A DNA stretch of 64,000 nt from Chitinophagaceae bacterium (GTDB taxonomy: Bacteria > Bacteroidota > Bacteroidia > Chitinophagales > Chitinophagaceae), in NCBI GenBank assembly GCA_004028765.1, contig SAIX01000012.1, positions 1-64,000 on the forward strand, read 5' to 3'. The position numbers and the translations under genes are program-made. The notes under the pieces were generated by a model that saw nothing but the letters and a program-made list of their open reading frames with translations, was not told the DNA's origin and did no database searches. This document shows, piece after piece, positions 1 through 11,144 of the stretch (its first letter is position 1; every line of letters begins with the position of its first letter).

Positions 1-14
1 GTACTATATTTCTG

Positions 15-227
15 ATGACAAAGCAAGAAATTGGACATATCATTTTAAAAAGACGTCAAGATCTTCTCTTAAAACAAGAGGACTTGTCAGAATTAACCGG
101 GATCACTTCCAAAACCATTTACCTGATAGAAAATGGCAGCGGAAACCCATCACTGGAAACATTGGAGAAAATAGCTAGTGTATTGGGATTAGAAATCAAT
201 GTACAGATCAGAGACGTTGAATCATGA
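15..227 (+). CDS. hipB: XRE-family HTH antitoxin, HipB-like
   Basis: 70 aa; HTH 'LLLKQEDLSELTGITSKTIYLIENGSGNPSLETLEKIASVLGL'; overlaps the next ORF and precedes HipA-like genes. Confidence 0.8.
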   Translation: MTKQEIGHIILKRRQDLLLKQEDLSELTGITSKTIYLIENGSGNPSLETLEKIASVLGLEINVQIRDVES

Positions 228-550
228 AAGGAGCGGTATACAACAATGGATTACTGGCAGGCTACTTAGAAAAGACAGCCAATGGCTATTTGTTTACCTA
301 TACAGAGAGCTATTATCAGAATAAGGACAATGCACCGATTAGTCTGACATTACCCAAGACACAACAACAATATGCGTCTGACAACTTGTTTGCTTTTTTT
401 CAAGGGCTTTTGTCAGAAGGTGTCAATAAGGATATTCAATGTCGACTATTGAAAATTGATGAAAACGATGATTTTACGCGCCTCTTGCAAACTGCAGGAG
501 ACGATACCATTGGCGCTATTACGGTAAAACCAGTTGAGGATGATTTGTAA
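224..550 (+). CDS. HipA N-terminal subdomain protein (HipS-like)
   Basis: 108 aa separate ORF 'MKGAVYNNGLLAGYLEKTANGYLFTYTESYY...PISLTLPKTQQQYASDNLFAFFQGLLSEG' resembling HipA N-subdomain 1. Confidence 0.8.
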   Translation: MKGAVYNNGLLAGYLEKTANGYLFTYTESYYQNKDNAPISLTLPKTQQQYASDNLFAFFQGLLSEGVNKDIQCRLLKIDENDDFTRLLQTAGDDTIGAITVKPVEDDL

Positions 551-1520
551 AGGATGTTATAAAGAAGATACGGACGGGTATTGTTTATCCTGTCGCAAAA
601 AGCTGTTTGATCGCTTACGAATCCCAGCTGTATTGTCATTTGATGCACCCAAGGCGGATAATATTGCCTCCTTCCAGGAGCATTCTAAAAGACTATCTAT
701 TTCCGGGGTGCAACTCAAATATTCTTTACGCCTGGAAAACAAAGCATTGGTTTTTACTGAGCAATCGGGTGAGTATATCTTAAAACCCATTCCACCATCC
801 AATCTACTGGTGGCAGTGGAAGATGCTCCCGAAAATGAACACCTCACCATGCAAATGGCTGAACAATTGTTTGGTATCCAGACAGCCGCCAATGCGCTAA
901 TTTATTTTAAAGATGGAGCACCCGCCTATATCACCAAACGTTTTGATGTAAGATCCGATGGTAGTAAATACCAACAGGAAGATTTTGCGCAGATCACCAG
1001 TCGTACCAAAGCGAGCCACGGAGAAACCTTTAAATATAATGGTAGCTACCTGGAGATCGGAGAAGCGATTCGAAAATTCGTAGCAGCCGCTGTACCTGCA
1101 CTCGAGCGCTTTTTTCAACTGGTGGTATTCAATTATATCGTATCCAATGGTGACGCGCACTTGAAAAACTTTTCCCTTATTCGCTCCACCGAAGGTGAAT
1201 ACCAGTTAACGCCTGCATACGATATCATGTCAACCGTCATTCATACCCCACAGGAATCCGATACCGCTTTGGATTTATATCCCGGTGATATGGACTCGGC
1301 TTTCTACCAGACCTATGGCTATTATGGCAGGGACAATTTTTTAGAACTCGCGGCTAAATTAGGATTATTGGAAAACCGCGCGATAAGAATGATAGATGCT
1401 TTTTCGGCGAGAAGAGAGCAGATGGAACAAATGGTGCAACGATCTTTTTTGAATGACGCGACAAAAGCGAAATACTTAAGCAATCTAGCAGATAAGATTA
1501 CGCGCCTGGATCCTAAGTAA
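540..1520 (+). CDS. HipA-like Ser/Thr kinase toxin (HipT-like)
   Basis: ATG at 540 overlaps the upstream stop; 'SISGVQLKYSL' Gly-rich loop, 'YITKRFD', 'FNYIVSNGDAHLKNFSL' catalytic HxxN; N-terminal CxxC...CxxC. Confidence 0.85.
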   Translation: MICKGCYKEDTDGYCLSCRKKLFDRLRIPAVLSFDAPKADNIASFQEHSKRLSISGVQLKYSLRLENKALVFTEQSGEYILKPIPPSNLLVAVEDAPENEHLTMQMAEQLFGIQTAANALIYFKDGAPAYITKRFDVRSDGSKYQQEDFAQITSRTKASHGETFKYNGSYLEIGEAIRKFVAAAVPALERFFQLVVFNYIVSNGDAHLKNFSLIRSTEGEYQLTPAYDIMSTVIHTPQESDTALDLYPGDMDSAFYQTYGYYGRDNFLELAAKLGLLENRAIRMIDAFSARREQMEQMVQRSFLNDATKAKYLSNLADKITRLDPK

Positions 1521-1536
1521 ACTATCATCGCACGCT

Positions 1537-2991
1537 CTATCCCATGATGATCTGGCGCATCCTTTCGGTCAGAATTGTTTCGATATAGGCAACTGCTAGG
1601 TTATCCTTTTTCTTTTCTTCGAGTGCCTTGATAATATCCTGATCGGTAATGGGTATCATCAGACCACGATCATCTGTATAAGTATCACGGCACCGGTCAA
1701 TGATCAGGTTCAGATCACTGATCTTTCTGCAGGCCAGTATACCAAATTTGCCGCGGTTAGGCGAAAACCGGCTCGACAACTGATCCAATTCCGGGTTGGC
1801 AGGGTCAACGCTATAGTTTTTGCACTCAATCACGATATAAGAACTGGGCACTTTTTTAACCGTATGCAAGAGGTAGAAAAATCCATTCTTAGCTGCATTG
1901 TCAAATGTGATATCGATGCGCTTACGACCCTTGTGTATTTTAGTTTCTTTCTCCGGGCAAACCAGGTTCGGATAAAAAAGAAAATCCAGCAGACCGATCA
2001 TCAGGGTATGGTAATCATCAGCAGAAGCGGTTCCTGTAGGAATGGCTTTAAGCCGTTCGATCAGGTAATCGCAAAACTGTCCCATATCAAAATCCTCCAG
2101 ATCTTCATGCCCGATGGGGGTAATCTTCTTACCAATTTTCCTTTTAAAGTCTTCCAGAATAGCTGGGTGCTGCACAGAAAATTTCCGTAGGTAATCGCGT
2201 GTTAACGGCGCTACCTTTTCTTTCAGGCTTTTCTTCGTCACGTATTTCCGTATCGTTCCATCCTTTTTTTTCTTGGTTTGTACCAACGCCGTATTTAAAC
2301 GCAGGTGTTCGCTACGCAGGAAGTTCAAAATAAAATGCTGGTGATAGACCGCAGGTGTATAGCCAAACTTATACGCGACAATACTTTTGGGAACGAGCAG
2401 TACTCGCTTATGATCGATGATTAAGTATTGCGTAAGTTCAGACCTCCATTCAGCTTCCACCGGATCCCAGTAATAACCAGACGGTACATCTTCGGTCAAA
2501 GGAAAGCCCCAGAGATTGGCCTGACGAATAGTATACTCTAGCAAATGCTTGCGGATAATGTTGGTAGTCATGTCCGAAATCTTATCCGGTCCAATACGAT
2601 CCACGAAGATGGCGGTATCGGGCAGATCTTCGATAAGCCCGGATTCCACGGCCTTACTTTTTAAGATCCGATCAAAGATTCTTTCTGCATCACCATCACC
2701 CATTCCTTTTCCGTCCCTGCTACCATTTGAAAGCCCCAGACCGGTTTCACCAGGCTCCCCTAAGTATTCAAACATAAATCTCGCTTCCTCAATGCGTTTT
2801 TGTTTGATCAGATTCACCAGGTATTCAAAAAAGTTCAATACGGTTTTACTAGCTTGTTCTGACCAGCGATCGGTTCTGCGGGAAAGAAAAAAAGGATCGA
2901 TGAACAGCGGCGTATCATCGCTTAAATCAACATTGACAAAATCCAACTCACGTTGGGTCTGGGACATACCAAATCTTTTCGCTATGCGCAT
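1537..2991 (-). CDS. Uncharacterised protein with C-terminal PD-(D/E)XK-like motif
   Basis: 484 aa; 'KRIDITFDNA...SSYIVIECKNYS' fits D-(x)n-ExK; last gene of three-gene minus operon. Confidence 0.55.
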   Translation of the reverse strand: MRIAKRFGMSQTQRELDFVNVDLSDDTPLFIDPFFLSRRTDRWSEQASKTVLNFFEYLVNLIKQKRIEEARFMFEYLGEPGETGLGLSNGSRDGKGMGDGDAERIFDRILKSKAVESGLIEDLPDTAIFVDRIGPDKISDMTTNIIRKHLLEYTIRQANLWGFPLTEDVPSGYYWDPVEAEWRSELTQYLIIDHKRVLLVPKSIVAYKFGYTPAVYHQHFILNFLRSEHLRLNTALVQTKKKKDGTIRKYVTKKSLKEKVAPLTRDYLRKFSVQHPAILEDFKRKIGKKITPIGHEDLEDFDMGQFCDYLIERLKAIPTGTASADDYHTLMIGLLDFLFYPNLVCPEKETKIHKGRKRIDITFDNAAKNGFFYLLHTVKKVPSSYIVIECKNYSVDPANPELDQLSSRFSPNRGKFGILACRKISDLNLIIDRCRDTYTDDRGLMIPITDQDIIKALEEKKKDNLAVAYIETILTERMRQIIMG

Positions 2992-3067
2992 AGACAGTTA
3001 TTTGGGATAATACAAGGGGTAAGATATCGGACAGGGGGGAATAGTGTAAGTTACGGCAATTATAGAG

Positions 3068-4510
3068 TTATACAACCTCGGAGGAGCGCTGGCTATTCTC
3101 TACTAAGCTCACTACAGCGTATCCTTGCAACATCTCCTTCAATTCCACCGCCTTCCCCTCATCCACCATGGCTTCATCCAGTAGTCGGATGAATTTGTTT
3201 TTATCGAGCTGGCAGCTGATACAAACGACAATACTGAGGCGCAGGATCTCCAGCGCTTCTTTTAAAAAATCAATCGGGCTACCATAATGCTGGCTTATTT
3301 TTTCTTTGTGTTTTTGGTCAAGTAATCCGCCATGTGCAAAGGTGCTACGGATACCATAAGCTTCTTTAAGAATGCTGACTACAGTCAGCGGATCCTTACC
3401 GCATATTGCCGCCATCTTAGCCACGCGCTGACGAAGTTTATAGCCCACTTCCATATTCTCATTGGAAAAAATAGCTTCAAGTCCCATCATGGTACTGGCT
3501 ACTTGTTTTTCGATGATATCATGTTCCAGCAGTGCATCCGAATAGCGATCATAGGCGATGGTGAGAAAACTGGTCTTGCGATCATGGTAACAAAAATCTG
3601 CGGGCAGCAGTGCTGACATTTGTTCCATAAATCGGATCAGGGCAGCTTCTTCTACCTGGCGCAGATAATAGGTGATCTGTGGAAATTTGATATGCCCATT
3701 TGAAATCACTCCACCTCGCCGGTTGCTTTCTATCACGATATCAGATTGCAGGCTATATCGCATAGTCTTTACACTACCCACGGCGAATAATCTCAGTATC
3801 ACCACATAGCGTTTGATGATCGCCTGCAAATCGATATTACTATGTTTTCCCTGGTTAAATTCAGGCACTAGTTCAAAACTGCCTTCCAGTATGGCCATCG
3901 GATGGTGCATGGACTCGCCATAGGCATCTGCCACTCGTATTTCTCTAGGTGTTTCAATATCTACCTGTGTGGTTTGCCGCAGTACGGATTGATCCGGTAA
4001 ATTGATAGTTGTTGATTCGAGTGTAATCCCTTGCAATTCCATGCGAAGCGCAAATTTCATAGGACCAGCACAAAGGTCTCTGATCATCCGCCACAGCAAA
4101 TCTTTGGTTTGCTCATACAAAAGAGCATCGGTTTTACAGCTATAACAAGCTTTTAAGTATAGTTGTACCAATCCATCAATGTCTTGGTCAGGCTTAGTGC
4201 GATGCGGGCAATGTTGTTGCAATAAGCCAAGCAAATGGTTATAGGTATCCCACCCCTTAAGCTTTGGCCAAAAATATTTATAGGCATTAATGGGTGAGGG
4301 TTTGGTAATCGTCTGTCCACTCATCTCCGAGCAACGCACACCTTTAGGTGTGTACGTGAAATCCTTAGCGATCCACTGAAAATATTGATCGTGAAGATCG
4401 GGGATGGCAGCAGACTTAATTCCTTCCGTTAATTCCTTTCTGGTCTGCTGCAGCAATGCCCAGGCGGCTTCGGTGATATCTTGCGTAGCTTGTGTAATTT
4501 CTTCCATCAT
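3068..4510 (-). CDS. HEPN-domain protein (ApeA-like HEPN)
   Basis: 480 aa; 'YGIRSTFAHGG' gives R-x4-H within a helical C-terminal region; 77 bp from next gene. Confidence 0.6.
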   Translation of the reverse strand: MMEEITQATQDITEAAWALLQQTRKELTEGIKSAAIPDLHDQYFQWIAKDFTYTPKGVRCSEMSGQTITKPSPINAYKYFWPKLKGWDTYNHLLGLLQQHCPHRTKPDQDIDGLVQLYLKACYSCKTDALLYEQTKDLLWRMIRDLCAGPMKFALRMELQGITLESTTINLPDQSVLRQTTQVDIETPREIRVADAYGESMHHPMAILEGSFELVPEFNQGKHSNIDLQAIIKRYVVILRLFAVGSVKTMRYSLQSDIVIESNRRGGVISNGHIKFPQITYYLRQVEEAALIRFMEQMSALLPADFCYHDRKTSFLTIAYDRYSDALLEHDIIEKQVASTMMGLEAIFSNENMEVGYKLRQRVAKMAAICGKDPLTVVSILKEAYGIRSTFAHGGLLDQKHKEKISQHYGSPIDFLKEALEILRLSIVVCISCQLDKNKFIRLLDEAMVDEGKAVELKEMLQGYAVVSLVENSQRSSEVV

Positions 4511-4521
4511 AAGCTGCGGGA

Positions 4522-5991
4522 TCAGTTGCGGACAGCTTCATAGCATTCTAATATATAATGCAGAATATCCACTGAACGCTCATACACACTAACGGCCAGT
4601 TCATATTCAGGAATATCTTCCGTATAATCATGCACCCAGGTATTGCATGTTTTGATCAGGTCCATGAATTCATCCTCGGTTAAATGGCTTGGATTTTTTT
4701 CCGTGAAGAAAAGAAACGCAGCACGGCTGATCCTGTTCCTTACCCCAGTATTGTATTTAGCCGCTTTGAATTTCTCTTCATTCCTAGCAATATAATCCGT
4801 TATCGCACCTTTCGCGGGTAACTTATCAATCACAAAACTGAATGTGCGACGCAGGGAACAAGCCATATGCACTACATAGTCCGGTCCCTTGCTGTTGAGG
4901 ACGTGTACCGCGCCGAGATAACTCTCTTTAATCGAGGAGTGAATAATCCCAAGTTTATAAACCAGGATTTCATTGATCTCGATATCATCATCGCTTACCG
5001 TTGGTGGTTCATATGCCGGCGCTGGTGAGATAACGGTTTCATGAAAGGGGCGATAGACTAAATCTCCGCGATCATTCACTTTTAAATGGGTATAGAGATC
5101 CAAAGCGTTGGTATAATCACGCTTTGCCAGTGTCGAGATCACAGCCGAGCCAACCGGGTAAATCCATTGGTTACTCTCCCTGCCCAAGGGGTAAATAGAA
5201 AGCGGATCTTTGTAACTGGTATATACGCTCGGTGTGATCGGACTAATAGATCTCACCGGATTAATCGTAGCGTACGGATGGTGATAACTAGTCAGCACAG
5301 TATCTCCAAAGCTACCGGTGGAACCAATGGGTTGAATCGGTCCAACATCCACTGAAGTAAACATACGGTCATATCGCTTGTTGAGCGCACCAACTGTCGG
5401 AAAACCAATCGCGCTATAATAGGTTTCTGAAGATCCTGTGATGGCTTGATCAACCGCTGCAGCACCATATACATTCTGATAATTCAAAATGGAATTAACT
5501 ACAGGTTTTGTGCTCATCGCAATACGACCGTTAGCTAGAGCTGAAAATTGGGTGATAGCATCCCCCTTCGTCCCTGAACCATACACATTGGTATAGTCTA
5601 AAATCGAAGGGGTCTTTGGCTGAATAGCAGTCAGGGTATTAAAAGCTGTAAGTGCGGAAGTACCATATACATTTGTATAGTTGAAAATTGAATCAACTTT
5701 GGGTGTGGTGGTGGCAAGCGCAATATTATTCTGCATACCCACTACACCATGCGGAAATATCATCGTAGCAGTATTGACCGGTGAGTTCACGGCAAAATTT
5801 TTGTTATCCACCATCCCAATACCGGCAACATACGTTTTGTTTTTATATTCATCGAGATCTACCATACCCACACCGCTGATATAGGTTTTATTTTTATAGT
5901 CGTTCAGGTTGACCATACCGATCCCCGAAACATAAGTCTTGTTTTCCCATTTGATAGACCCATTTCCTGAGCCTGTGTAATCGTTAATCAT
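4522..5991 (-). CDS. Hypothetical protein with two families of short N-terminal repeats
   Basis: 489 aa; 3x 'NKTY(V/I)(S/A)G(I/V)GMV' and 4x '(S/F)I(L/F)(D/N)Y.NVYG'; first gene of the minus operon, 11 bp from next gene. Confidence 0.6.
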   Translation of the reverse strand: MINDYTGSGNGSIKWENKTYVSGIGMVNLNDYKNKTYISGVGMVDLDEYKNKTYVAGIGMVDNKNFAVNSPVNTATMIFPHGVVGMQNNIALATTTPKVDSIFNYTNVYGTSALTAFNTLTAIQPKTPSILDYTNVYGSGTKGDAITQFSALANGRIAMSTKPVVNSILNYQNVYGAAAVDQAITGSSETYYSAIGFPTVGALNKRYDRMFTSVDVGPIQPIGSTGSFGDTVLTSYHHPYATINPVRSISPITPSVYTSYKDPLSIYPLGRESNQWIYPVGSAVISTLAKRDYTNALDLYTHLKVNDRGDLVYRPFHETVISPAPAYEPPTVSDDDIEINEILVYKLGIIHSSIKESYLGAVHVLNSKGPDYVVHMACSLRRTFSFVIDKLPAKGAITDYIARNEEKFKAAKYNTGVRNRISRAAFLFFTEKNPSHLTEDEFMDLIKTCNTWVHDYTEDIPEYELAVSVYERSVDILHYILECYEAVRN

Positions 5992-6066
5992 GTTTTGTAT
6001 TATTAATAATCGTCAATTTATATAAATTTACTAAAAATTTTGGGATTTTCCAAGCGAACAAATGCG

Positions 6067-6086
6067 AATAACCAAATCTGGTTATT
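6067..6086. promoter_or_regulatory. Inverted repeat upstream of the minus-strand operon
   Basis: AATAACCA-AATC-TGGTTATT perfect 8-bp arms about 75 bp upstream of the 5991 start. Confidence 0.3.
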
Positions 6087-6529
6087 GTAAGCTCCCTAAC
6101 CGGAACGGATACACTTTATATACTCCCATAATAGACTCACACCAGTAGTTTTGCCAGCCCAGATAAAGGGCATTCAAACTTGCTTCATAATCAACGAATC
6201 AACAGTATAGTCCAATACCCGCTTCTGTATTATTAATTCATTATATCCCGGCTTGCTTTCCACCAGACAATTGCGTGATATTTTCTCTGACTTTATTTTT
6301 AGAATAACCCTGTATAAATAGTAGCTAAAATCCGTGCCGATGGCCCGATTCAGCTAATATTTGGGTAAAAACATGCTAAAAAATCATATCATCCTGATAA
6401 TCAATCAATTAACTCCTATAAAACTTTTAGATCAAAACTTTTTCTAAAAAAAGTCTATTTCCACCCAGTACCTCCATCTTAGTTATACTGTCTTTATAGG
6501 TGCAAACCGAGTCATTAAACGAGAGCGCC

Positions 6530-7705
6530 ATGTCAGCAAACCCGATCCGCTTACAAACCCTGTTTAGAAAATATCTCCGTGGCAACATCACGCCATCGGA
6601 ACAGCAAGAGTTTTGGGAGTTAATGGCAGACTATGATGACAAGGATCTGCTGGAAGTGGAACTAAAAGTACTTTGGGAGAAGGAACAACCAGTCATCCGC
6701 CCCTCAGATAGCGTTAACTGGAAGCGCGTGGAAAACCGCTTGGCAACGATGATAAAAAACAGTGAGATCAATTACGATCGATTCAAACCAAGGCGCCTGA
6801 TCCCTGCCTGGACCAAATATGCAGCTGCAGCCATCATCATCGGTGTCATGGTATTCGTTGGCAAGCAATGGATCAATAATCAGCCTGAGCAACAAGCGAT
6901 CACGGCCCAAACCGATATCCCCGCTCCTGATAAAAGCCGGGCGATGATCACGCTGGCGGACGGAAAGACGATTTTGTACCTGGATCAGATCAAAAATGGT
7001 AGCAGTGTTGTAGCACAAAACGGGCTTATTGTGCGTAAGGCAGCAGATGGCAGTGTGCAGTATGAAAGCAACGGTGCGGCAACAGATCAGGCTATCGCTT
7101 ACAACACGTTCAGTAATCCCAGGGGATCAAAAGCGCAGAAACTGGTGCTGGATGATGGAACAGCCATCTGGCTGAATGCAGGAAGTTCTTTTCGATATCC
7201 ACTTGCATTTGTGGAAGGGAAACCCAGGCATGCAGAGCTGTTAGAAGGTGAAGCGTTTCTCGAAGTGAAGCATGATGAGAAAAGTCCCTTCACATTGAAA
7301 GTGGGATCGGAGCTGATCGAGGATTTGGGGACCAGTTTTAATGTGAATGCATACACAAGTGGAAATATTAAAACTACCCTGGTTGATGGTGCATTGAGAG
7401 TAAATGCCAAAGCGATTCAGCCGGGTGAGCAGTATCAAAACGGTATTATCACAAAACCGGAAATGGAACAGGTCGTGGCCTGGAAAAATGGGCAGTTCAA
7501 TTTCAATGAATCAAGTGTAGATGAGATACTAAAGCAGGCGGCAGTATGGTACGATATTGAAATTCTAATGGAGGGAAAAGTGAATGAACGATTCTCGTTC
7601 AGTGTGGACAGGAGTAAACCGGTATCTGCCTTACTCAAAGCGATGGAATTATCCGGTGGGGTACATTTTGAGATCGAGGGAAGGAAAGTCTATGTGAGAC
7701 CGTAG
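6530..7705 (+). CDS. FecR-family anti-sigma factor
   Basis: Cytoplasmic helical N-terminus, one TM 'YAAAAIIIGVMVFV', FecR domain 'LDDGTAIWLNAGSSFRYP...EAFLEVKHDEKSPFTL', C-terminal STN-like; start set at MSANP. Confidence 0.85.
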   Translation: MSANPIRLQTLFRKYLRGNITPSEQQEFWELMADYDDKDLLEVELKVLWEKEQPVIRPSDSVNWKRVENRLATMIKNSEINYDRFKPRRLIPAWTKYAAAAIIIGVMVFVGKQWINNQPEQQAITAQTDIPAPDKSRAMITLADGKTILYLDQIKNGSSVVAQNGLIVRKAADGSVQYESNGAATDQAIAYNTFSNPRGSKAQKLVLDDGTAIWLNAGSSFRYPLAFVEGKPRHAELLEGEAFLEVKHDEKSPFTLKVGSELIEDLGTSFNVNAYTSGNIKTTLVDGALRVNAKAIQPGEQYQNGIITKPEMEQVVAWKNGQFNFNESSVDEILKQAAVWYDIEILMEGKVNERFSFSVDRSKPVSALLKAMELSGGVHFEIEGRKVYVRP

Positions 7706-7829
7706 CAACAGAACAAAAGAAATTTCAGGTGCGACTAACACCTGTGGTTACTATAATATCCTACGAAAGACTACAAGCGGCTTGACGGGCGCTGACCAAA
7801 ACTATTGTAAACGTTTAAACCCAAACCCC

Positions 7830-10800
7830 ATGCATCCACATGCATCCGGCTTCACCATTCCACGTACTTACCAAAAACTGCTTATGGTAGCCAAATTAAC
7901 CATGCTGATCCTTGTGCTTGCTTTGAGCCAGGCAAGCGCACGCATTGGCGCGCAGACGGTCAAACTCAATGTAAAGAACGAAAAACTCGGCAATGTACTG
8001 AGAGAAATCAAACGCCAGACCGGCTATGATTATGTGTATAATGCGAAATTCGCCTCCGAAGCCCGCAGCATCACCATTATCACGAACGGTGAGGATCTGC
8101 AAGCTGTCCTGCAAAAATGTTTCCAGGATCAGCCCTTCACCTACGAGATCACCGACAAGATCATCGTGATCAAGGAAAAATCTGCCCCAAAGCCAGAAAC
8201 AAAAAACGCCGCGGCGGCTCCCCTCGCATTACCGCCACCCCCAACTGATGTAACCATTGTTGTAACAGATGCAGACGGTCAACCACTCGAAGGCGCTTCT
8301 GTCACAGTCAAAGGAAACAACAAAGGCCTTATCACAGATGCCACCGGAAAAGTAAGTTTCAAAGCGGTCGATGATAATGCGATACTTGTTGTTTCATTTA
8401 CAGGCTACCAATCGCAAGAATTTAATATCAATAAGCGTAGAACGATAGGAATCAAATTACAAACGTCAACCAGCCAGCTGGACGAAACGGTCGTTATTGC
8501 TTACGGCAAAACCACGAAACGTTTTGCTACTGAAAGCATTGTGAAGGTTAAAGGAGAGGACATTGAAAAGCAGCCGGTTGGCAATGCGATATTGGCCCTT
8601 GAATCAAGAGTTCCGGGACTACAGATCTATCAGACCAGCGGTATTCCGGGCAGAGGGTTTACGATCTTATTGCGCGGCATCAGCAGTATCAACGCCTCGG
8701 GCAGATCACCTTTGTATTTAGTTGATGGTGTTCCATTAAGTACAGCATCTATGGATAACAATAATCTGGGAACTCCGGGAGGGGTATCATCCACCCCGCT
8801 CGCAAGTTTAAATCCTCAGGATATTGCCAGTATTGAAGTGTTGAAGGATGCAGATGCGACCGCCATATATGGATCCCGAGGAGCGAACGGCGTCATTCTT
8901 ATTACAACCAACAAAGGAAAGCCGGGGAGAGTGAAATTGAACATCAACTTACAAAACGGACAAACTAAGGCTACGCGGTTTATGGATTTATTAAATAGAG
9001 AACAATATTTACAACTCAGGCATGAGGCATTTACAAATGATGGAGTAACTGCTCTGCCTTCCAATACTTACGACCTGAACGGAAATTGGGACACCACCAG
9101 ATATACGGATTGGCAGAAACTTTTTATCGGTAACACGGGACATTTTTTCACCGGTCAAGCATCACTTACAGGCGGAAGCGAGAATACCAGCTTTCTTTTA
9201 GGAACAAATTATACTAAAGAAACTACAATTTACCCGGGCAATTTTTATGATGAACGTTATAGTGTTCATTTTTCCGCGGATCATTTTTCCACCGACCGTA
9301 AGTTCAAAGTTTCTATCAATAGTATCTACACCATTCAGTTAAACAAACTACCACCTACTGATTTTGTTTCATCCAGATACCTGACGCTCTCACCTGTGGC
9401 TCCGGCCTTGTATGATTCATCCGGTAAACTAAATTGGCAAAACAATACCTGGTTAAATCCGTTCAGTAATTTGTATAATATAATTAAAAACAATTCCGAG
9501 TATTTAAACGGAAATGTTGCGCTTAGTTATCGGTTTAATCGAAATTTTCAATTTGTTACGAATTTAGGCTACAGCACTCAGATGTATGATCAAGTTCAGG
9601 TGGCGCCCCAAACTTCATTTAATCCGGCAAGCGGAACTCTTTCCAGTTCAGGATTCGCGAATCAAAAAAGAGAAAGATGGATTTTGGAGCCGCAGCTCAA
9701 CTACCAATTCACGCTCGGTAAAGCCAAGCTTACAGCTAGTGTGGGTAATACAACGATTAACGAAAAATCCACAGGTATGTCACTGTCGGCTAAAGGATTT
9801 TCCAATGACGGACTTATAGAAAACCCTGCTGCAGCTACAACTATACAAGTAACCTCTGTTAACTACTCACTGTATAAGTATATAGGTTTTTTCGGGAAAA
9901 TGAACTTTAACGCAGGAGATAAGTACTTATTCAATCTGACTGCTCGCAGAGATGGCAGCAGCCGGTTCGGACCCGGCAATCAATTTGGCAATTTCGGTGC
10001 GGCCGGCATAGGTTGGGTATTCAGCAAGGAAAAATTTATATCTGAGAAGAGTCTAATCAGTTTCGGTAAAATTCGGGCTTCGTACGGCACTACCGGGAAC
10101 GATCAAATAGGCGACTATCAATTCTTAGATACTTATACACCTTATACGAATGCTTATCTCGGTGTGAGTCCCTTGTTACCGCAACGATTGCAAAATCCTG
10201 ATTATGCATGGGAAAAGGTTAATAAACTCGATCTGGGATTAGATATAGGATTATTAAAGGATAAAATACTGATTAGTGCGGATTATTATGATCACAGGTC
10301 ATCGAACCAATTATTGAGCTATCCTCTTCCCGGAATTACAGGTTTCACTTCGGTTCTTACAAATCTGCCGGCTAAGATTCAAAATAGGGGTTTTGAGTTG
10401 CAAGTTAGCTCAACCAATATGCGTTCAAAAAACTTCAGGTGGGAATCAATTTTTAATATCACAGTTCCGCAAACCATATTGTTAGCGTATCCGGGCATTG
10501 AAAGCTCAGCTTTTTCTTTGCTGACAGTAGGAGAGTCTTTTTTTAGTTCTCGAGTCCTTCATTATTTGGGTGTAGATCCGCAAACAGGCTTGTACACCTT
10601 CGAAGACTACGATAAAGACGGCAAAATTTCCTCACCTAATGATTATAAAAAAATCATCAACAACGGGCAACAGTTTTACGGAGGATTTGAGAATAAACTC
10701 ATGTATAGGGGTTGGAGTCTAGACGTCAATTTTCATTTTGTCAGACAAAAATACGCCACTTCTTATTATGCCTTAAATGGTTCGGTTCCAATTGTAGCAA

Positions 10801-11144
10801 CCAATTATCCTTCTTATATACTGGAAAGGTGGCAGAGCGTCGGACAGGCAGCAGCAGTTCAAAAATTATCGAACTCTAATACAGCGACGGCCACAGCTTA
10901 CAATTTATTTTTAAATAGCGACGGAGCTTACAGTGACGCATCTTTCATCCGTTTGAAAACGGTCAATATAGGATATCAACTTCCGACTTCTCAATTGAAA
11001 AAAATGAAGATTCAAGGCTTAAGGCTATATGTATCCGCTCAAAATCTATTAACGTTTACGTCCTATAAGGGACTTGATCCGGAAACAAAAGGTCTAACAC
11101 CAATAACCAAAGTTATTACTACCGGCATTCAAATCACACTTTAA
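7830..11144 (+). CDS. SusC/RagA-family TonB-dependent outer-membrane protein with STN domain
   Basis: Signal/TM, STN domain, carboxypeptidase-like 'LEGASVTVKGNNKGLITDATGKVSF', plug 'DADATAIYGSRGANGVILITT'; ATG at 7830 (MHPHASG). Confidence 0.95.
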   Translation: MHPHASGFTIPRTYQKLLMVAKLTMLILVLALSQASARIGAQTVKLNVKNEKLGNVLREIKRQTGYDYVYNAKFASEARSITIITNGEDLQAVLQKCFQDQPFTYEITDKIIVIKEKSAPKPETKNAAAAPLALPPPPTDVTIVVTDADGQPLEGASVTVKGNNKGLITDATGKVSFKAVDDNAILVVSFTGYQSQEFNINKRRTIGIKLQTSTSQLDETVVIAYGKTTKRFATESIVKVKGEDIEKQPVGNAILALESRVPGLQIYQTSGIPGRGFTILLRGISSINASGRSPLYLVDGVPLSTASMDNNNLGTPGGVSSTPLASLNPQDIASIEVLKDADATAIYGSRGANGVILITTNKGKPGRVKLNINLQNGQTKATRFMDLLNREQYLQLRHEAFTNDGVTALPSNTYDLNGNWDTTRYTDWQKLFIGNTGHFFTGQASLTGGSENTSFLLGTNYTKETTIYPGNFYDERYSVHFSADHFSTDRKFKVSINSIYTIQLNKLPPTDFVSSRYLTLSPVAPALYDSSGKLNWQNNTWLNPFSNLYNIIKNNSEYLNGNVALSYRFNRNFQFVTNLGYSTQMYDQVQVAPQTSFNPASGTLSSSGFANQKRERWILEPQLNYQFTLGKAKLTASVGNTTINEKSTGMSLSAKGFSNDGLIENPAAATTIQVTSVNYSLYKYIGFFGKMNFNAGDKYLFNLTARRDGSSRFGPGNQFGNFGAAGIGWVFSKEKFISEKSLISFGKIRASYGTTGNDQIGDYQFLDTYTPYTNAYLGVSPLLPQRLQNPDYAWEKVNKLDLGLDIGLLKDKILISADYYDHRSSNQLLSYPLPGITGFTSVLTNLPAKIQNRGFELQVSSTNMRSKNFRWESIFNITVPQTILLAYPGIESSAFSLLTVGESFFSSRVLHYLGVDPQTGLYTFEDYDKDGKISSPNDYKKIINNGQQFYGGFENKLMYRGWSLDVNFHFVRQKYATSYYALNGSVPIVATNYPSYILERWQSVGQAAAVQKLSNSNTATATAYNLFLNSDGAYSDASFIRLKTVNIGYQLPTSQLKKMKIQGLRLYVSAQNLLTFTSYKGLDPETKGLTPITKVITTGIQITL

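Follow-up and report, generated by a model that had tools for sequence, protein, structure and literature searches.

Three adjacent minus-strand genes in a 64,000-nucleotide stretch of a Chitinophagaceae genome (contig SAIX01000012.1, positions 1 to 64,000; hereafter, the window) bring together known kinds of domains in a combination that has not been recorded. They encode a repeat-bearing protein with a probable pP_pnuc_1 domain (P0003), a predicted HEPN protein (P0002), and a predicted PD-(D/E)XK nuclease (P0001). The best explanation, held tentatively and at somewhat less than even confidence, is a same-strand, probably co-transcribed anti-phage (anti-mobile-element) cluster, in which P0003 and P0002 would form a unit and P0001 would be separable. 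A defence role is supported by the predicted domains and by the neighbourhoods of the relatives of these genes.

Locus layout and flanking genes

The window sequence contains three minus-strand open reading frames of 489, 480, and 484 amino acids, with gaps of 11 bp between P0003 and P0002 (4511-4521) and 76 bp between P0002 and P0001 (2992-3067). These coordinates agree with the original prediction, which described three similar-sized genes with such gaps beside a toxin-antitoxin module. That flank was also recovered: the trio is convergent with plus-strand HipB-like, HipA-N and HipA-C toxin-antitoxin genes (15-1520). The genes are as follows:

15-227, plus strand: HipB-like HTH gene
224-550, plus strand: HipA N-domain gene
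534-1520, plus strand: HipA C-domain gene
1537-2991, minus strand: P0001, last gene of the trio, 484 aa, predicted PDC-M36A-type N-domain and PD-(D/E)XK nuclease
3068-4510, minus strand: P0002, middle gene, 480 aa, N-terminal part with no family assignment and predicted C-terminal HEPN domain
4522-5991, minus strand: P0003, first gene, 489 aa, N-terminal repeat-bearing part and C-terminal pP_pnuc_1-like domain

HipA is split in this module, the HipB-like HTH, the HipA N-domain and the HipA C-domain being encoded by three genes in an arrangement that resembles hipBST. As the window starts at the contig end, genes further left are unreadable. Among the promoter and terminator patterns that would define the transcript of the trio, none exceeded chance. 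The right flank (6500-11144) holds ORFs that are FecR-like and SusC/TonB-like by sequence. In 81 same-genus genomes this flank gave short matches only and no long counterpart, so that an empty site for a mobile insert is not readable.

P0001 and the PDC-M36 candidate system

P0001 is, as far as its sequence tells, a PDC-M36A-type domain followed by a PD-(D/E)XK domain in which the D360/E389-x-K391 site is intact:

2092-2991, minus strand: N-terminal domain, approximately residues 1-300, also occurring as a free-standing plasmid gene of about 290-315 aa
1597-2064, minus strand: predicted PD-(D/E)XK domain, approximately residues 310-465, with catalytic D360, E389, and K391

The last protein had been called PD-(D/E)XK-like from its IDITFDNA...YIVIECKNY segment. 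This assignment is supported by the relatives and by the catalytic residues: a five-sequence alignment shows no variation at D360, E389, or K391, which make up a conserved D...(D/E)xK site. One relative (L009) passes the Pfam model Mrr_cat; the score of P0001 itself against HSDR_N_2 does not reach the cut-off. In the AlphaFold model of P0001 (mean pLDDT 61) the C-terminal order of strands and helices fits PD-(D/E)XK. A Foldseek search with this model gave weak hits, none at E <= 0.001, FokI being the best (E 9.8e-3) and MspJI and Cap4 among the best.

Matches to P0001 were found in 9 of 392 class genomes, the window's own included, and three of the others (G322, G384, and G373) encode full-length relatives with 31-35% identity. 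Partial matches occur in 99 plasmid records, where the N-terminal part is the most frequent among the matches listed; the matching gene in each of the three records inspected encodes 288-315 aa. A Paenibacillus protein has a P0001-like nuclease joined to a different N-terminus. The model phrog_27295 matches residues 1-461 (E 2.8e-84). Despite this match, a phage origin was rejected, as tblastn found neither P0001 nor P0002 in phage records; a Foldseek search against viral structures yielded nothing at E <= 0.001. Sequence searches of the PDB gave no informative match.

P0001 is related to PDC-M36, a PADLOC phage-defence candidate made up of one A protein and two small B proteins. It qualifies as the A protein (E 2.6e-39); the strongest alignment spans residues 2-257, and a second model covers the C-terminal nuclease at 324-455. 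Two small genes matching PDC-M36B come after the A gene in the PDC-M36 loci of Leptolyngbya and Methylobacterium; none is present in the window. Gene order and ORF sequence, inspected by eye, point to the A-B-B layout in G632 as well, and in G1106, which is from the window's own family. P0001 is placed in a slightly longer branch, with members that occur on their own. PDC-M36 as a whole system was therefore rejected for this locus: the B genes are absent, and the neighbours of P0001 are P0002 before it and a convergent hipT-like gene after it. The literature searched does not name PDC-M36. The original prediction could not match the operon to a named system; this has to be corrected for P0001, which matches PDC-M36A, and is still right in so far as the B partners are absent.

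PDC-M36A genes lie near translesion-polymerase genes in L019 (4142-7356), L020 (4913-7353), and L028 (8115-17748). The Leptolyngbya gene is near annotated UmuD/UmuC, the Methylobacterium gene near a DUF4113 protein, and the G632 gene near DnaE-like and ImuB-like ORFs, as judged by sequence; in G1106 translesion-polymerase genes were not seen, and groEL-like genes adjoin. In Falsihalocynthiibacter (L082, 2527-5345), a stretch resembling the PDC-M36A N-terminus directly follows a PaeR7I-type restriction-modification pair. A P0001-related gene in L086 (6989-11466) adjoins ORFs that are relaxase-like and integrase-like by sequence.

The plasmid distribution bears on a reading in which the cluster has no part in defence and is a toxin-antitoxin-like or selfish stabilisation cluster on a mobile element. 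The adjoining hipBST-like module, the many plasmids with genes for the P0001 N-domain, and the P0001 relative beside relaxase-like and integrase-like ORFs would agree with it; however, the ORFs next to the trio include none recognisable as an integrase, relaxase or transposase, though the contig end bounds the left side, and we regard this reading as very improbable.

P0002 and P0003

P0002 is predicted to have a C-terminal HEPN domain whose Rx4H site is intact:

3221-3523, minus strand: putative HEPN region, approximately residues 330-430, with the invariant E345
3332-3349, minus strand: Rx4H motif, R388-S-T-F-A-H393 (motif definition, PMC3710099)

The HEPN assignment had been proposed from RSTFAHG, which is present at residues 388-394, and finds support in the relatives and in the conserved catalytic residues. 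P0002 itself passed no Pfam or NCBIfam model, HEPN models included. Only four plasmid records match it at E <= 1, all of them at the C-terminal R388-x4-H393 region, and two of these matches are annotated as HEPN. Leaving aside the window's own genome, a profile of the C-terminal region retrieved five more proteins from 245 class genomes. E345, Y385, R388, and H393 are invariant over the nine sequences of the C-terminal set, some of which match HEPN models of Pfam, three in all (E 0.0011, 0.0031, and 0.05). HEPN domains are described as having Rx4-6H, in which R is followed by a polar residue; in many families there is also an upstream acidic residue, typically in Ex3[KR] (PMC3710099). P0002 shares with the HEPN RNases of defence and toxin-antitoxin systems the C-terminal Rx4H, with S after R388, and the upstream invariant glutamate; however, E345 is followed by AIFS, so that the acidic residue lacks the typical [KR]. 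The single-sequence structure model (pLDDT 36) is too poor for judging a helical HEPN fold.

The neighbourhood of one HEPN relative includes genes for a restriction-enzyme-like ATPase and a DNA methyltransferase. Full-length relatives were absent from the 398-genome phylum sample and the 61-genome genus sample, and a search of a large collection of genome contigs gave no relative of P0002. ApeA-type proteins (PF18739) likewise have a C-terminal HEPN domain and a length of about 450-480 aa. Identity with ApeA was rejected: PF18739 matches neither P0002 nor the window's own genome, and hhalign with shallow profiles linked the P0002 set neither to ApeA nor to HepT.

The features of P0003 are the following:

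5806-5943, minus strand: three NKTYVSGIGMV-type repeats, residues 17-62 (units at 17, 34, and 51)
5407-5691, minus strand: three SI-x-[ND]-Y-x-NVYG repeats, residues 101-195 (units at 101, 129, and 167)
4675-4932, minus strand: match to PF18165 (pP_pnuc_1) below cut-off, residues 354-439

P0003 had been described as a repeat-bearing sensor. The repeats are real, the best 17-residue self-alignment scoring 76, whereas none of 60 shuffles scored above 37, and two DNA copies of the SI-x-[ND]-Y-x-NVYG repeat are 74% identical. The sensor label goes beyond what the sequence shows, and the C-terminal pP_pnuc_1-like domain had been missed. PF18165 matches P0003 at E 0.016 for the whole protein and 0.0018 for the C-terminal part alone, which at 18.3 bits does not pass the cut-off of 26.3; the score of a relative (L054) is 101 bits. 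This L054 protein, from genome G096, was found with a profile built from P0003 and the G194 relative (E 3.0e-6) and itself passes PF18165 (4.8e-29) and PADLOC Aga_Nuclease (3.4e-10); P0003 therefore probably carries a pP_pnuc_1 domain at low identity. G096 and G194 both belong to the window's genus. The G096 protein adjoins the reverse transcriptase and NDT genes of a type II-A retron, and the G194 relative is near SLFN_AlbA_2 and AbiJ_NTD4 genes.

The likeness to pP_pnuc_1 proteins (PF18165; PADLOC Aga_Nuclease) is in the C-terminal part of P0003, and a same-genus relative is far above the cut-off; unlike these proteins, P0003 has no recognised pAgo, pPIWI or reverse-transcriptase gene among its neighbours. 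In L054 (6826-10262), a type II-A retron of the same genus with NDT and RT genes, the third gene bears the pP_pnuc_1 domain. For P0003, a retron was rejected: no reverse transcriptase is recognised among the neighbouring ORFs, and positions 1-7800 have no Rfam match.

Co-conservation and proposed mode of action

The genome samples were drawn subsets that overlap, some genomes being in both the phylum (398) and genus (61) samples, and neighbours in the relatives' loci were identified from ORF sequence unless a family match is cited. No sampled genome besides the window's own has two of the genes P0001, P0002, and P0003 side by side. G322 encodes a HEPN relative in addition to its P0001 relative; the two genes lie on separate contigs. 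The full-length P0001 relatives of G322, G384, and G373 have no P0002 or P0003 relatives adjoining, a close contig end making one side short in G384; they are flanked by genes that look like housekeeping genes (dnaK and folD, by ORF sequence), not by obvious defence islands. Both relatives of P0003 have neighbours other than P0001 or P0002 relatives. Co-conservation, whose absence the original prediction had named as a refutation, is lacking in every genome sampled; the other elements of its RNase and DNase defence operon, namely HEPN, PD-(D/E)XK, and the defence context, are retained.

Three ways of grouping the genes have to be weighed. First, they could be three independent single-gene defence modules stacked beside the hipBST-like module, as happens in ordinary defence islands, their adjacency being accretion and not a joint mechanism. 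Each gene has relatives that are not adjoined by relatives of the other two, and P0001-type genes are single in three genomes; however, the gap between P0003 and P0002 is only 11 bp, all three genes are on the same strand, and the genome samples are limited. We consider such stacking a serious possibility, nearly as likely as the preferred explanation. Second, they could be one undescribed three-component system, in which the repeat-scaffolded P0003 senses or controls, and infection releases the HEPN RNase and the PDC-M36A-type PD-(D/E)XK DNase together. Here the compact same-strand arrangement and the occurrence of relatives of all three domain types in defence-type loci are set against the absence of co-conservation in every sampled genome, and the single system appears unlikely. 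Third, P0003 and P0002 could be a unit with P0001 separable, which is slightly favoured: the 11-bp gap argues for the unit, and P0001 looks separable since its full-length relatives stand alone as single genes.

In this preferred, two-part arrangement, P0003 and P0002 would act together, P0003, scaffolded via its repeats, being the partner of P0002. The HEPN RNase of P0002 would be held inactive until infection; once freed, it could cut tRNA or mRNA and stop growth (abortive infection). P0001 would be a separable DNA nuclease, whose N-terminal domain may choose the target, and would add direct cleavage of invading DNA. As no second sampled genome has two of the genes side by side, such a joint mechanism is something that we infer.

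The trio links three domains that have been little studied with defence. The candidate protein PDC-M36A can also occur on its own, as a nuclease lacking the B partners, and within a single genus the pP_pnuc_1-like proteins with repeats or low-complexity sequence have differing partners. Should all three genes act together, RNA and DNA cleavage would be paired in one response.
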